A DNA stretch of 64,000 bases. It comes from Betaproteobacteria bacterium (lineage in GTDB: Bacteria; Pseudomonadota; Gammaproteobacteria; Burkholderiales; Casimicrobiaceae). Location: NCBI GenBank assembly GCA_029884335.1, contig JAOUIA010000007.1:1-64000 (forward strand). The letters are read 5' to 3'. Positions 10,376-14,674 of the stretch are shown in pieces. The notes under the pieces are model-generated. The model was not told the DNA's origin. It saw only the letters and a program-made list of their open reading frames with translations, and did no database searches. Both the position numbers and the translations under genes were made by a program. Within the stretch, counting starts at the first letter, position 1, and every line of letters begins with the position of its first letter.

Positions 10376-12148
10376 ATGCCCGAAGCCCGTTCCAGCGCGG
10401 CGTCCGCGTTTCCTTCCGAAGCCCTCGACCTCGCCTCCGAGTGGCGGCGCATCGGCGCCGAGTGGGCGGCGTGGTGGGCCAGGGCCGCGCTGCCGCCCGC
10501 CGCGGGCGCCGCGCTTGCCGGCCCGCTGCCGGCGCTGCACGATCGCGTGCGCACGCTGGTCCCGCCGGCGAAGCTCGCCGAGATCAACGCGAAGCACCAG
10601 GCGAAGCTCGCGCAGCTGTGGCAGGCGGCCGTGGCGACGCCACTGGGTGCGCCGCTGCCGCAGGTCGTCGACATTCCCGCGGACGACAAGCGCTTCCGCG
10701 CCGAGGCGTGGCGCACGTCGCCGTTCCACTCGCTGGTGCTGCAGTCCTACCTCGTCAACGCGGCGTGGCTCACCGAGCTGGCGGCGAACGCCGACCTGCC
10801 CGGCCCCGATCGCGCGCGCCTGGCGTTCATGACGCGTCAGTGCGTCGACGCGCTGGCGCCCTCGAACTTCCCGGCGACCAATCCCGAAGTCGTCGAGCTC
10901 TCGCTCGCCACCGAGGGCGGCAACTTCGTGCAGGGCGCGGCGAACCTCGTCGCCGACCTCGCGCGGGGCCGCATCACGATGAGCGACGCGACGGCCTTCG
11001 AGGTCGGGCGCGACATCGCGGTGACGCCCGGCGCGGTCGTTTACCGCAACGAGCTGATCGAGCTGATCCAGTACGCGCCCACGACGGCCACGGTGCACGC
11101 ACGCCCGCTGGTGATCATCCCGCCGTGCATCAACAAGTACTACATCCTCGACTTGCGTCCCGAGAACTCGTTCGTCCGCCACGCGGTGGCGCAGGGGCAC
11201 ACGGTGTTCACGGTGAGCTGGCGCAACATCCCGCCCGAGCTCGGCCGCCTGACCTGGGACGACTACCTGGCGAAGGGCGTGCTGACCGCGCTCGCCACGG
11301 CGCGCGAGATCGCCGGCAGCGCGACGGCGAACGCGCTGGGCTTCTGCGTGGGCGGCACGCTGCTCGCAGGCGCACTGGCGGTGCTCGCGGCGCGCGGCGA
11401 CCGCTCGGTGGCGAGCGCGACCTTCCTCACCACGATGCTCGACTTCGCCGACCCCGGCGAGATCGGCGTGTACGTGTCGCGCGAGTTCCTCGAGTCGCGC
11501 GAGGCGGCGCTGATGGCCGGCCAGCGCATGCACGGCAGCGAGCTGGCCGGCGCGTTCGCGAGCCTGCGCGCCAACGACCTCGTGTGGAGCTACGTCGTCA
11601 ACAACTACCTCAAGGGCCGCACGCCGCCGGCGTTCGACCTGCTGCATTGGAACGGCGACTCGGCGAACCTGCCCGGGCCGATGTTCGCGTACTACCTGCG
11701 CGAGATGTACCTCGGCAACCGGCTGTGCAAGCCGGGCGCGCTGACGATGCTGGGCGAGCGCGTCGACCTCGGGCGCGTACGCATGCCGGCCTACGTGCTC
11801 GCCGCGCGCGAAGACCACATCGTGCCGTGGCGCTCGGCCTACCGCAGCGTCCGGCTGCTGGGCGGCGAGGTCGAGTTCGTGCTCGCCGCGTCCGGCCACA
11901 TCGCCGGCGTCGTCAACCCGCCGCAACCGCCGCGGCGCGGCCACTGGACCGCCGTGTCGCAGCCGAGCGAACCCGCCGCTTGGCTCGACGGCGCCCGCGA
12001 AGTGCAGGGCAGCTGGTGGCCGCACTGGCACGCCTGGCTCGCGCGGCACGGCGGCCGCAGGCGCCGCGCCCCGGCACGCCCCGGCCATCCGCGCCATCCG
12101 GCGCTCGAGCCTGCGCCGGGCCGCTACGTGCGCGAAGCTGTCGACTGA
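10376..12148 (+). CDS. phaC: Class I polyhydroxyalkanoate synthase PhaC
   Basis: Polymerises (R)-3-hydroxyacyl-CoA into PHA on the granule surface. At 590 residues it has class I length. The lipase-like box GFCVGG holds the nucleophile Cys324, and the rest of the triad is visible as Asp480 (AREDHIV) and His508 (GHIAGVVNPP). The PhaC N-terminal domain spans about residues 90-270, and the C-terminal motif PGRYVREA is typical. It is followed by phaB; no thiolase gene phaA lies between them, unlike the Cupriavidus phaCAB order, so acetoacetyl-CoA must come from a thiolase encoded elsewhere. Confidence 0.97.
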   Translation: MPEARSSAASAFPSEALDLASEWRRIGAEWAAWWARAALPPAAGAALAGPLPALHDRVRTLVPPAKLAEINAKHQAKLAQLWQAAVATPLGAPLPQVVDIPADDKRFRAEAWRTSPFHSLVLQSYLVNAAWLTELAANADLPGPDRARLAFMTRQCVDALAPSNFPATNPEVVELSLATEGGNFVQGAANLVADLARGRITMSDATAFEVGRDIAVTPGAVVYRNELIELIQYAPTTATVHARPLVIIPPCINKYYILDLRPENSFVRHAVAQGHTVFTVSWRNIPPELGRLTWDDYLAKGVLTALATAREIAGSATANALGFCVGGTLLAGALAVLAARGDRSVASATFLTTMLDFADPGEIGVYVSREFLESREAALMAGQRMHGSELAGAFASLRANDLVWSYVVNNYLKGRTPPAFDLLHWNGDSANLPGPMFAYYLREMYLGNRLCKPGALTMLGERVDLGRVRMPAYVLAAREDHIVPWRSAYRSVRLLGGEVEFVLAASGHIAGVVNPPQPPRRGHWTAVSQPSEPAAWLDGAREVQGSWWPHWHAWLARHGGRRRRAPARPGHPRHPALEPAPGRYVREAVD

Positions 12149-12221
12149 CCGCGCTCGCCCGCCCTTGCGCTAACATCCCGGCATACTTTCGCGCAACGCA
12201 TCCCTGGGAGGAGGAGACGCC

Positions 12222-12974
12222 ATGGCAATGAAGAATCCGCGCATCGCACTGGTCACCGGCGGCATGGGAGGGCTCGGCGAGGCGATCTGCATCAAGCTCG
12301 CCGCGCTCGGATACAAGGTCGTCACGACCTACTCGCCGGGCAACCAAAAGGCGCAGGAGTGGCTCGAAGCGATGAACAAGATGGGCTACGGGTTCCGCGC
12401 CTACGCCTGCGACGTCACCGACTGGGACTCGTGCGCCGCGTGCGTGACGAAGGTCGCCGCCGAGGTCGGCCCGGTCGACGTGCTCGTGAACAACGCCGGC
12501 ATCACGCGCGACATGACGTTCCGCAAGATGGACAAGGCGGCGTGGGACGCCGTGATCCGCACGAACCTCGACTCGGTCTTCAACATGACCAAGCAGGTCT
12601 GCGACGGCATGGTCGACCGCGGGTGGGGCCGCGTGATCAACATCTCGTCGGTCAACGGGCAGAAGGGCGCGTTCGGCCAGGTCAACTACTCGGCCGCCAA
12701 GGCCGGCATGCACGGCTTCACCAAGGCGCTCGCGCTCGAGACGGCGAAGAAGGGCGTCACCATCAACACGATCTCGCCCGGGTACATCGGGACGAAGATG
12801 GTGATGGCGATCCCGCAGGACGTGCTCGACTCGAAGATCATCCCGCAGATCCCGCTCGGCCGGCTGGGCAAGCCCGAGGAGGTCGCGGGGCTGGTCGCCT
12901 ATCTCTCGAGCGACGAGGCGGCGTTCGTGACCGGCGCCAACATCGCGATCAACGGCGGCCAGCACATGTTCTGA
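12222..12974 (+). CDS. phaB: Acetoacetyl-CoA reductase PhaB
   Basis: NADPH-dependent SDR that reduces acetoacetyl-CoA to (R)-3-hydroxybutyryl-CoA, the substrate of PhaC. The 250-residue protein shows TGGMGGLG (cofactor loop), NNAGITRD, catalytic Ser in INISSVNGQKG, YSAAK as the Tyr/Lys pair, and the PhaB-typical C-terminus GANIAINGGQHM. A strong ribosome-binding site GGGAGGAGGAG precedes ATG 12222. It lies 73 bases after phaC and is probably cotranscribed. The two hairpin modules that follow end in T-tracts on the opposite strand, so they do not obviously terminate phaB. Confidence 0.95.
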   Translation: MAMKNPRIALVTGGMGGLGEAICIKLAALGYKVVTTYSPGNQKAQEWLEAMNKMGYGFRAYACDVTDWDSCAACVTKVAAEVGPVDVLVNNAGITRDMTFRKMDKAAWDAVIRTNLDSVFNMTKQVCDGMVDRGWGRVINISSVNGQKGAFGQVNYSAAKAGMHGFTKALALETAKKGVTINTISPGYIGTKMVMAIPQDVLDSKIIPQIPLGRLGKPEEVAGLVAYLSSDEAAFVTGANIAINGGQHMF

Positions 12975-12992
12975 CGCGTCCGCGGAACGCCG

Positions 12993-13063
12993 AAAGAAAA
13001 AGGGCCCCGGCAGCGCCGGGGCCCGAGGACTGTATCTTTTCAGGAGGAGGAGGAAAGATACAG
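12993..13063 (-). ncRNA. Candidate small RNA, module 2: anti-SD loop hairpin plus terminator
   Basis: Read on the minus strand: a 10-bp stem CTGTATCTTT/AAAGATACAG (13054-13063 with 13030-13039) closes a 14-base loop CCTCCTCCTCCTGA. Five bases later a strong GC hairpin (13002-13011 with 13015-13024) is followed by TTTTTCTTT, a textbook intrinsic terminator. The loop is complementary to Shine-Dalgarno sequences. Module 1 at 13181-13244 has the same loop but a different stem and terminator sequence, which indicates selection for structure and loop. No clear promoter was found; it could be its own RNA or a processed phaP 3'UTR. Confidence 0.6.
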
Positions 13064-13146
13064 CTCGCCGCCGCGGGAGGGCCGGGGGCGCAGGGGATGC
13101 GCAGGACCGGCTTTTCGCGACGACAAATCCAATCTACCGCTACGGG

Positions 13147-13164
13147 TTAGAGCGGGGGCTCTAA
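13147..13164. repeat. 18-bp perfect palindrome between the two RNA modules
   Basis: TTAGAGC-GGGG-GCTCTAA, a perfect inverted repeat with a four-base centre, lies between the terminator of module 1 and module 2. It might be an operator for module 2 or a short hairpin; no partner site was found elsewhere in the window. Confidence 0.4.
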
Positions 13165-13180
13165 TCTGCCGCGGTGCAAC

Positions 13181-13244
13181 AAAAAGAGAGCCCCGCATCG
13201 CGGGGCTCGAGGCTGTATCTATCAGGAGGAGGAGGTAGATACAG
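13181..13244 (-). ncRNA. Candidate small RNA, module 1: anti-SD loop hairpin plus terminator
   Basis: On the minus strand, about 65 bases after the phaP stop codon, a 9-bp stem CTGTATCTA/TAGATACAG (13236-13244 with 13213-13221) closes the 14-base loop CCTCCTCCTCCTGA. Four bases later comes a terminator stem GAGCCCCGC/GCGGGGCTC (13200-13208 with 13188-13196) and TCTTTTT. The loop is identical to module 2 while the stem differs by compensating changes (A-T against T-A pairs). It may be the 3' end of the phaP mRNA, released as a small RNA, or an independent transcript. Confidence 0.62.
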
Positions 13245-13310
13245 TTACTGCTGTGCTGCAACATGGGGACGCCGGCCAGGGGTTACAAGGCCCCGCCCCC
13301 ACGCCGGCGC

Positions 13311-13856
13311 TTACGCGGCGCGGCGGCCCTTCGGCGCGGCCTTGGCGGCCGAGTTCGCCGCGGCGCGCACGCTCGCGTCGGCCAGGTTCACGACCTGGCG
13401 CGTCGCCTTCTGGAACTGGTCGAAGGCCGCGGTCGTGGCCGCCACCGTCGACTTGAACGCGTTCACGGCCACATCCGAGCCGGCCGGAGCCGACTGGCTC
13501 GCGGTGTCGACCCACTTCGCCATGCCGCGGGTGTAGTTGGACCACGACTCTTCCGAAGCGGCGGTCAGCTCGGCCTGTGCTTCCGAGGCCAGCTCGTAGA
13601 GGTTCTTGGAGTACGCCAGCGCCGTCTGCACACCGTGCTCGGCGAGCTTCGCGCGCAGCGCGAACAGCTCCTGGACGTCCTTGACGGTCGCGACGGCCTT
13701 CGCGTTCTCGAGCGACTGCTCGACGGCGAAGCGCGCGGTGTTCATGCCGAGCTTGACGAACTTCTCGGCGTTCCCGATCGCGATCGCGGCGAGCTTCGAG
13801 GCTTGGGCGACGTTGACCTTGTTGAATTCGGCGAACTGCTCGGTGGGGTTGTACAT
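13311..13856 (-). CDS. phaP: Phasin family protein PhaP
   Basis: Phasins coat PHA granules and control their number and size. The 181-residue protein starts MYNPTEQFAEFNKVNV, is helical and amphipathic throughout with many Ala, Glu and Lys, and ends in a basic AAKAAPKGRRAA tail, all typical of the phasin_2 family. ATG 13856 follows a GGGAG site; a longer frame upstream would include the promoter region. It is transcribed away from phaR from a good promoter at 13977-14005 flanked by two near-identical repeats likely to bind PhaR. Downstream lie the two anti-SD hairpin/terminator modules. Confidence 0.92.
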   Translation of the reverse strand: MYNPTEQFAEFNKVNVAQASKLAAIAIGNAEKFVKLGMNTARFAVEQSLENAKAVATVKDVQELFALRAKLAEHGVQTALAYSKNLYELASEAQAELTAASEESWSNYTRGMAKWVDTASQSAPAGSDVAVNAFKSTVAATTAAFDQFQKATRQVVNLADASVRAAANSAAKAAPKGRRAA

Positions 13857-13953
13857 GGCGGGCTCCCGGTTGGAAATCGACTCGACCTCGGCGCAGCTTG
13901 CGGCACCCCGGGACCTGCTCCGCGGGGGCGCCCGGGGCACCCGGGCGCGCGGG

Positions 13954-13973
13954 TTTTGCTGCACCGCACAAAT
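13954..13973. promoter_or_regulatory. Candidate PhaR operator 1 (at phaP transcription start)
   Basis: TTTTGCTGCACCGCACAAAT, located between the phaP -10 box and the coding start, where a bound repressor would block initiation. It matches operator 2 in 17 of 20 bases or more over the core TTGCTGC-R-CCGCAC. PhaR is known to repress phaP in other betaproteobacteria by binding TGC/GCA-rich sites; the assignment here is inference from position and repetition. Confidence 0.5.
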
Positions 13974-13976
13974 CGG

Positions 13977-14005
13977 AGTATAGGTATGCGGAACGCCCTC
14001 GTCAA
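13977..14005 (-). promoter_or_regulatory. phaP promoter
   Basis: On the minus strand, TTGACG (14000-14005) and TATACT (13977-13982) are separated by exactly 17 bases, close to the sigma-70 consensus. Transcription would start near 13970, inside operator 1, about 115 bases before the phaP ATG. Confidence 0.72.
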
Positions 14006-14008
14006 GGA

Positions 14009-14030
14009 TTTTTTGCTGCGCCGCACCAAT
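14009..14030. promoter_or_regulatory. Candidate PhaR operator 2 (next to the phaP -35 box)
   Basis: The core TTTTTTGCTGCGCCGCAC followed by CAAT repeats operator 1 in the same orientation, just upstream of the phaP -35 box and about 40 bases before the phaR -10 box. It is well placed to act on both divergent promoters, consistent with PhaR autoregulation. Confidence 0.5.
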
Positions 14031-14070
14031 CCGGCCGATCGATCCCCGAAAGTCCGACAAATCAGTGGGT

Positions 14071-14076
14071 TATAAT
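14071..14076 (+). promoter_or_regulatory. -10 box for phaR
   Basis: Perfect TATAAT, 25 bases upstream of the phaR ATG. The -35 region is poor (GAAAGT-like), suggesting a weak or regulated promoter. Confidence 0.55.
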
Positions 14077-14101
14077 GCACGCTCGCTCCCGGAGTGCCCC
14101 G

Positions 14102-14674
14102 ATGGCCAACGCGATCCGCACCATCAAGAAGTACCCCAACCGCCGCCTCTACGACACGGCCAACAGCGGCTACATCACGCTCGCCGACGTGAAGCAGATG
14201 GTGCTCGACAACGTCGATTTCCAGGTGGTCGACGCGAAGAGCGGCGAGGACCTGACGCGGGCCATCCTGCTGCAGATCATCCTCGAGGAGGAGTCCGGCG
14301 GCCTGCCGATGTTCAGCTCCGAGATGCTCACGCAGATGATCCGCTTCTACGGCTCGGCGCAGCAGACGATGATGGGCCAGTACATGGAGCAGAACGTCAA
14401 GGCGTTCATGGCGATCCAGAAGAAGCTGCAGGACCAGGCCAAGCAGATCTACGGCGACAAGATGCTGCTGACGCCGGACCTGTGGAAGCAGTTCATGCAG
14501 ATGCAGGCGCCCGCGATGCAGGGCATGCTCGGCAACTACCTCGAGCAGAGCGCCAAGCTCTTCATGGACATGCAGCAGCGCATGCAGGACCAGACGCGCG
14601 GCATGTTCTCGGCGTTCCCGTTCCCCGGGTTCGCGGCGCCGCAGTCCGGCCCGGACGAAGACAAGTCGCGCTGA
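14102..14674 (+). CDS. phaR: PHA synthesis repressor PhaR
   Basis: DNA- and PHB-binding regulator: it represses phasin genes until polymer appears and titrates it. The 190-residue protein opens with the PHB/PHA accumulation regulator DNA-binding domain ([20 protein letters not shown] at residues 5-24 is the signature), followed by PHB_acc repeats rich in Met and Gln ([15 protein letters not shown] and [13 protein letters not shown]). ATG 14102 fits the domain start; GGAG precedes it. It is divergent from phaP with shared operators, and rimO follows, an order seen in other betaproteobacteria. Confidence 0.96.

Follow-up and report, generated by a model that had tools for sequence, protein, structure and literature searches.

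Known C-rich-loop RNAs and the phasin locus

The described small RNAs closest to the modules reported here are those of Rfam family RF02278 (Betaproteobacteria_toxic_sRNA), namely ncS03, ncS05, ncS27 and ncS62 of Burkholderia cenocepacia, together with the related S17 of Bordetella pertussis, which come from the same order as our sequence. Like our modules, they consist of a hairpin with a C-rich or CU-rich loop, directly followed by a terminator hairpin and a U-tract, and are about 60-75 nt long. Overexpression of NcS27 slows growth (PMC5688073), and for its relatives an action on the uptake of carbon and amino acids has been predicted (PMC5688073, PMC10987360). RNase E cuts a 190-nt precursor to give S17 of about 70 nt, which represses by base pairing at ribosome-binding sites, a repression that compensatory mutations restored for one target; the candidate targets include nearly all paa genes as well as 32 transporter-related genes or operons (PMC11722255).

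The nearest alternative C-rich-loop RNAs are the CcsR or cuckoo RNAs (RF02791) and ar14 (RF02344) of Alphaproteobacteria. CcsR RNAs have two to four adjacent hairpins. This group is reported to carry CCUCCUCC(C) loops on variable stems, in tandem copies behind a protein gene and under an RpoHI/RpoHII promoter, and the CcsR RNAs are cut out by RNase E (PMC10253847); SmelA075 and SmelA099 are related C-rich-loop RNAs (PMC3927594). A PHA-linked RNA, of which the initial annotation knew no described case, exists in MmgR of Sinorhizobium (RF00519, suhB; ar8), an Hfq-dependent sRNA tied to PHA storage and phasins. MmgR is, however, a free-standing alphaproteobacterial gene that lowers phasin protein from outside the phasin transcript (PMC8401924). 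Reviews of RNA control of PHA treat MmgR, ArrF, CrcY/Z and the Rsm RNAs, and a phasin 3'-UTR RNA is not named in their available portions (PMC8401924, PMC9049629). A paper on phasin regulation in Ralstonia (PMC11332829) makes no mention of a UTR or terminator, and a literature search of limited reach found no paper on a phasin 3'-UTR sRNA.

The window analysed here is a stretch of 64,000 nt from an assembly of 3.66 Mb (120 contigs, 95.6% complete). It carries on the plus strand phaC (PHA synthase, PhaC_N, 10376-12148) and a gene for a phaB-like short-chain dehydrogenase (adh_short, 12222-12974), then on the minus strand the two RNA modules and phaP (phasin, Phasin_2, PF09361, 13311-13856), and again on the plus strand phaR (PHA regulator, PHB_acc_N and PHB_acc), for which 13898-14674 is the open frame and the true start lies further in. 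The closest named PhaP is 88% identical and belongs to 'Betaproteobacteria bacterium BroJett026'. Because two named Casimicrobiaceae are among the other close PhaP records, we call the family Casimicrobiaceae-like (f1).

The two tandem minus-strand modules with identical loops that the initial annotation described are indeed found behind phaP, at 13244-13181 and 13063-12993, each with its own hairpin terminator. Both follow one plan of a 9- or 10-bp stem, a 14-base loop, a GC hairpin and a T-tract. The hairpin of module 1 (13213-13244) reads CTGTATCTA / loop CCTCCTCCTCCTGA / TAGATACAG, with arms at 13244-13236 and 13221-13213 around the anti-Shine-Dalgarno loop (13222-13235), and is followed by a terminator at 13181-13208 (stem 13208-13188, T-tract to 13181). 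With its 5' end placed from a promoter box, the RNA of module 1 would be about 74 nt long (13181-13254). Module 2 (12993-13063) has the arms CTGTATCTTT (13063-13054) and AAAGATACAG (13039-13030) around the same loop (13053-13040), then a terminator stem at 13024-13002 and a T-tract to 12993. The stems start 66 nt (module 1) and 247 nt (module 2) behind the phaP stop codon.

Neither module is matched in folding by any of 200 shuffles (z -5.5 and -6.4). We also sought 8-bp hairpins around CCTCCTCC, with a terminator as no part of the criterion, and the window gave two, which are the two modules, compared with 16 in total (mean 0.08) in 200 Markov sequences of window length. The compensating stem changes between the copies that had been pointed out initially are present: pair 9 is flipped from A-T to T-A, and one of the copies has an additional T-A pair. 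Nothing else differs and the eight outer pairs are identical, so the covariation between the two window copies is slight and weak as evidence. A MAFFT alignment of the two modules alone put the stems in the wrong place and was excluded from our counts.

Small RNAs derived from 3' UTRs are classed as type I, with their own promoter, or type II, cut from the mRNA. Our locus resembles them in its position behind a coding gene and in the shared terminator. Module 1 lies on the same strand directly behind phaP and ends at the terminator of that gene, and a terminator stands between phaP and module 2. A scan found no terminator besides that of module 1 between the phaP stop and 13208; the one at 13181-13208 probably also serves the phaP mRNA. 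No sigma-70-type promoter was found in a scan of 12900-13400.

Conservation of structure and linkage to phaP

A phaP search of relatives gave 29 loci, their phaP identity confirmed, in 28 of 149 genomes, and 23 of these loci supplied the 28 modules of our alignment. Across the ten stem pairs 94.2% of the cells are paired, with two-sided changes at eight of the ten. These changes amount to 42 cells compared with 11.1 +/- 2.6 in shuffles, none of 500 shuffles being as high, a count that kinship among the sequences can by itself lift above shuffles. Slid registers fail the same test. The loop motif TCCTCC is invariant in all 28 modules, and RNAalifold independently recovers the same stem together with the terminator stem. 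The initial annotation had read from the two copies that selection acts on a structured RNA whose loop is anti-Shine-Dalgarno; the alignment of related genomes, in which both loop and stem are conserved, bears this out.

Six phaP loci gave no module by our filter (L017, L029, L032, L034, L035 and L036). L029 is cut short by the end of its contig; at L034 and L036 the phasin is an additional one, and the genome has the RNA behind a different phaP; and L035 belongs to another family, where a CTCCTCC run is present and the hairpin is different. The element is absent behind phaP in L017 and L032. At L017 (G014:C3), which is of the same genus as our sequence, an inverted-repeat-like stretch (GGGGTCAGACTC...GAGTCTGACCCC) stands behind phaP in place of the RNA.

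We built a covariance model, R1, from these family modules; module 1 scores 68.9 bits with it, by construction, since it is part of the model. The covariance search of related genomes proposed at the outset gave matches in 39 of 64 family genomes at E <= 0.01 and in 33 at E below 1e-6, our own genome included. In our own genus 20 of 22 genomes (own genome included) match at the stricter level, and the matches are weak or missing in genera g2 and g6. In our own genome R1 at E <= 0.01 finds the two window modules and no others. The suspected tie to phaP proves to be a lasting one: in 30 of the 33 strong-match genomes, own genome included, a copy follows phaP on its own strand at a distance of 28 to 279 nt. 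In G021 and G005 the RNA borders a contig end beyond which phaP would lie, and in G039 both strong copies are located away from phaP. Copies away from phaP are L099 (G025:C15:56812-56891), L100 and L103 (the latter two at G039:C73 and C147), one of which, judged by eye, is upstream of a small secreted beta/gamma-crystallin-like protein. In a few genomes the RNA has thus spread to other sites.

Relation to RF02278 and the form in other families

At the gathering threshold Rfam gives no match in the whole window. RF02278 scores 17.4 and 16.0 bits on the modules against a cut-off of 50, and by that test they are not members. Below threshold we also see CcsR1 (14.8 of 65.3 bits), ar14 (29.8 of 58.8 bits) and RF00519 (19.7 bits, cut-off 41); the matches to ar14, BjrC68, suhB/MmgR and CcsR1 are all due to this C-rich loop or to the terminator. 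The stem of the modules differs from that of RF02278 (CTGTATC vs TCCACC), and the CU-rich unpaired 5' tail of RF02278, UGUCUCC, is absent before both. A similar tail is found in many family relatives, as GTCTCCT or GACTCC, and also in other families. The window copies are in tandem behind phaP, whereas the Burkholderia RF02278 copies are reported not to be in tandem (PMC5688073). As for CcsR, its loop is CCUCCUCCC, its operon has a single terminator at the end and its partner gene is often DUF1127 (PMC10253847), while our locus has the loop CCUCCUCCUCCUGA, one terminator per hairpin and phaP as partner. The likeness to alphaproteobacterial C-rich-loop RNAs on which the initial annotation drew holds, but these are not the sole nearest kind, and the betaproteobacterial RF02278 RNAs (NcS27, S17) were left unnamed there.

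The two models recognise each other's sets. RF02278 matches 7 of 18 phaP-linked RNAs of other families with 30 to 40 bits (E 0.0001 to 0.04), the best score among the 18 (40 bits) being under the 50-bit gathering score. Conversely, R1 matches the RNA itself in 30 of the 30 best-scoring RF02278 loci and in 22 of 22 phaP-linked loci of other families, with rough E-values of 7e-12 to 0.013; the terminator and C-rich content common to both can inflate such mutual matches. R1 also has one unexplained match elsewhere in L048 (E 0.0009). RF02278 is found at E <= 0.001 in 157 of 250 genomes of the order and above its cut-off in 92 of them. No phaP was seen within about 1.5 kb on each side of the 30 best-scoring RF02278 loci, and lower-scoring matches may include phaP-linked RNAs. 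Two genomes, G153 and G229, have their listed RF02278 match at one place and the phaP-linked RNA at another, so there at least they are separate genes.

Across 300 genomes of the order R1 at E <= 1e-5 matched 15, and phaP-linked RNAs were found in two further families, f48 and f42 (L115, L116, L119, L125). For an order-wide sample we took the best PhaP of 113 genomes among the matches listed (193 of the 300 genomes had one), and as only listed matches were used this sample leans to PhaP close to the query. Two were dropped for having less than 80 nt behind the stop, which leaves 111 phaP downstream regions. CTCCTCC lies within 200 nt behind phaP in 24 of the 111 on the sense strand (the 2 of our own family included) and in none on the antisense strand, compared with a Markov mean of 1.8 and maximum of 6 (200 runs); it is absent in the other 87. 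By family the motif occurs in 5/5 regions of f23, 5/5 of f42, 3/4 of f48, 2/3 of f37, 4/8 of f21, 2/2 of f1 and 1/1 of f17. Three matches, the only ones of f11 and of f13 and one of those in f21 (L298, L317, L236), fold unlike the rest, and we distrust them. Among named PhaP loci (the best 80 of 176) the motif is present within 230 nt in 47 of the 80, and the Iodobacter, Deefgea, Thauera and Chitinimonas phaP loci in the set have no motif within 400 nt.

Outside f1 the motif usually reads GUCUCCUCCUCC or nearly so and is found 6 to about 110 nt past the first base of the phaP stop; it is followed by a short hairpin, which varies between loci, and then by a terminator with a U-tract. Thirty of 31 such tail-form RNAs were aligned, and TCCTCC is invariant among them. 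In the folds of 26 (near-duplicates removed) CTCC is unpaired in the 5' tail in 25, and the hairpins are variable. L211 and L212 bear, besides the tail, a C-rich loop similar to that of the window, and thereby join the two forms. The phasin 3'-UTR element is present in at least six GTDB-type families of Betaproteobacteria; it is real, conserved and wider spread than was initially supposed. Two loci, L142 (labelled Bordetella parapertussis) and L162 (labelled Lysobacter sp.), have phaP and the phaP-linked RNA as in betaproteobacterial MAGs, and these organism labels are probably wrong.

What the sequence comparisons point to is no new kind of sRNA but a known one, of which the phasin-linked RNAs form a divergent branch. 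We consider it probable that both modules are base-pairing sRNAs of the RF02278/NcS27/S17 kind, in a diverged branch tied to phasin genes, and that they act by the mechanism proposed below. The alternative that survives best is convergence, in which a phasin 3'-UTR RNA gained a C-rich loop itself and acts like RF02278 or cuckoo RNAs, with separate descent. The stem shares nothing obvious with that of RF02278, the Rfam scores are under the cut-off and short C-rich loops are, in our judgement, easily evolved, but the intermediates L211 and L212 and the mutual recognition of R1 and RF02278, even if inflated by shared content, make separate descent rather unlikely. Our confidences in the preferred reading and in its alternatives overlap and do not sum to one, and convergence would leave the mechanism unchanged.

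Promoter box, mode of action and candidate targets

Ahead of module 1 there is a putative RpoH (sigma-32)-type box, CTTGTA-N15-CCCCATGT (13261-13289, minus strand), which resembles the RpoH consensus CTTGAA-N13-17-CCCCATNT (PMC4263515). The box was spotted by eye first and then tested. In the family, 32 loci were examined, of which 2 were without the RNA, and the box stands ahead of the RNA in 20 of the remaining 30, compared with 0/30 on the antisense strand and a Markov mean of 0.36 and maximum of 3 (300 runs); the other ten are without it at the cut-off used. A looser cut-off gives 19 of 28 modules (antisense 2/28, Markov mean 1.3), with the box at 19 of 23 first copies and at none of five second copies, and no box was recognised for module 2. 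Because the genomes are related and largely shared by both counts, these numbers overstate independence. The box was seen before 1 of 27 RF02278 loci (those of the 30 in which the tail was found) and before none of 30 phaP-linked loci of other families. The Casimicrobiaceae-like family has the putative promoter box, and none was recognised in the other families. The sole perfect CTTGAA-N12-16-CCCCATNT site in the genome (L352:1501-1528, which is G000:C80:15683-15710) lies before a ClpB-like gene (Clp_N, AAA) and shares CCCCATGT with the module 1 box; it is a useful control, from within the same genome, on whether the RpoH consensus applies to this lineage.

It could be argued that the element works in cis, with no free sRNA: the phaP mRNA would have its 3' end protected by the hairpin and terminator, or phaP's own Shine-Dalgarno sequence would pair with the C-rich loop. 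Many loci of other families have so short a gap between the first base of the phaP stop and the motif (6 to about 50 nt) that a promoter could hardly fit in there, if at all, and in the window our scan from the phaP stop to 13208 finds no other terminator. What makes a role in cis improbable in our view is the separate RpoH-type box ahead of module 1, the existence of copies away from phaP (L099, L100, L103) and the poor pairing of the phaP Shine-Dalgarno sequence with the loop (-9.4 kcal/mol vs -23.2 for phaB). The RF02278 relatives, moreover, are described as free RNAs (PMC5688073).

Under the preferred reading of a base-pairing sRNA, module 1 in the phaP 3' UTR would be made both by cutting of the phaP mRNA, with which it shares its terminator, and from its own RpoH-type promoter, and module 2 would be a duplicate behind module 1. 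The exposed CCUCCUCCUCCU loop would likely pair in trans with Shine-Dalgarno sites, by analogy with what has been shown for S17, and probably with Hfq. Such pairing would lower the translation of uptake and catabolic genes, and perhaps also of the convergent phaB, during PHA deposition or stress.

The phaB-like gene is a candidate target close at hand. Its Shine-Dalgarno sequence AGGAGGAG is at 12209. With GGGAGGAGGAG, which stands before the phaB start, the loop forms 11 pairs at a duplex energy of -23.2 kcal/mol, compared with -9.4 kcal/mol each for phaC (at the listed ORF start) and phaP. The strong phaB site is not universal: of 80 loci 21 have a phaB match, and in 8 of these AGGAGG is found within 20 nt. 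The pattern AGGAGGAG-N3-12-ATG has 50 sites in our genome (G000), compared with 15 when it is reversed. Counting from a length of 80 aa upwards, 36 distinct ORFs have AGGAGGAG, and phaB is not among them. By Pfam, 19 of the 36 are solute-uptake proteins (periplasmic solute-binding and other uptake genes); 2 ORFs beyond the main 34 have no family. With the control Shine-Dalgarno sequence GAAGGAGA, however, uptake proteins make up 5 of 7 ORFs (6 of the 7 scanned), one of the five beginning inside a solute-binding protein. TAAGGAG has just 2 sites. On these grounds we dropped the enrichment for uptake genes as a target signal. The enrichment was not specific and gives no evidence of tuned targets.

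The lack of specificity in this comparison would suit a decoy, in which the loop mimics the 3' end of 16S rRNA and titrates the ribosome or an RNA-binding protein, not chosen messages. The window loop includes the 16S anti-Shine-Dalgarno core. The name of the RF02278 RNAs refers to their inhibition of growth in E. coli (PMC5688073), but exponential growth of E. coli BL21 is not impaired by S17, and repression of an S17 target is restored by swap mutants (PMC11722255), and we regard a decoy as a slim prospect. That the modules are two ordinary terminators with chance C-rich sequence is very unlikely, for although C-rich sequence is common in a GC-rich genome, the covariation, the family-wide R1 matches, the Markov hairpin control and the phaP-linked CTCCTCC counts are all contrary.

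A wider picture can be offered tentatively. The phasin 3'-UTR anti-Shine-Dalgarno sRNA might be an old and widespread betaproteobacterial device by which PHA deposition releases a brake on uptake and catabolism, and in the Casimicrobiaceae-like lineage the element might have been duplicated in some members, with its pairing site moved to the loop and a heat-shock promoter gained. If true, the Casimicrobiaceae-like form would tie carbon storage to the stress response, the double-hairpin-like sRNAs would be given a defined metabolic trigger and PHA research a second phaP gene product. Carbon storage may then be linked, through the element, to a known kind of sRNA that slows growth. The arrangement of the genes also varies, and at four loci (L161-L163 and L166) phaP, the RNA and the phaB-like gene lie head to tail on one strand.
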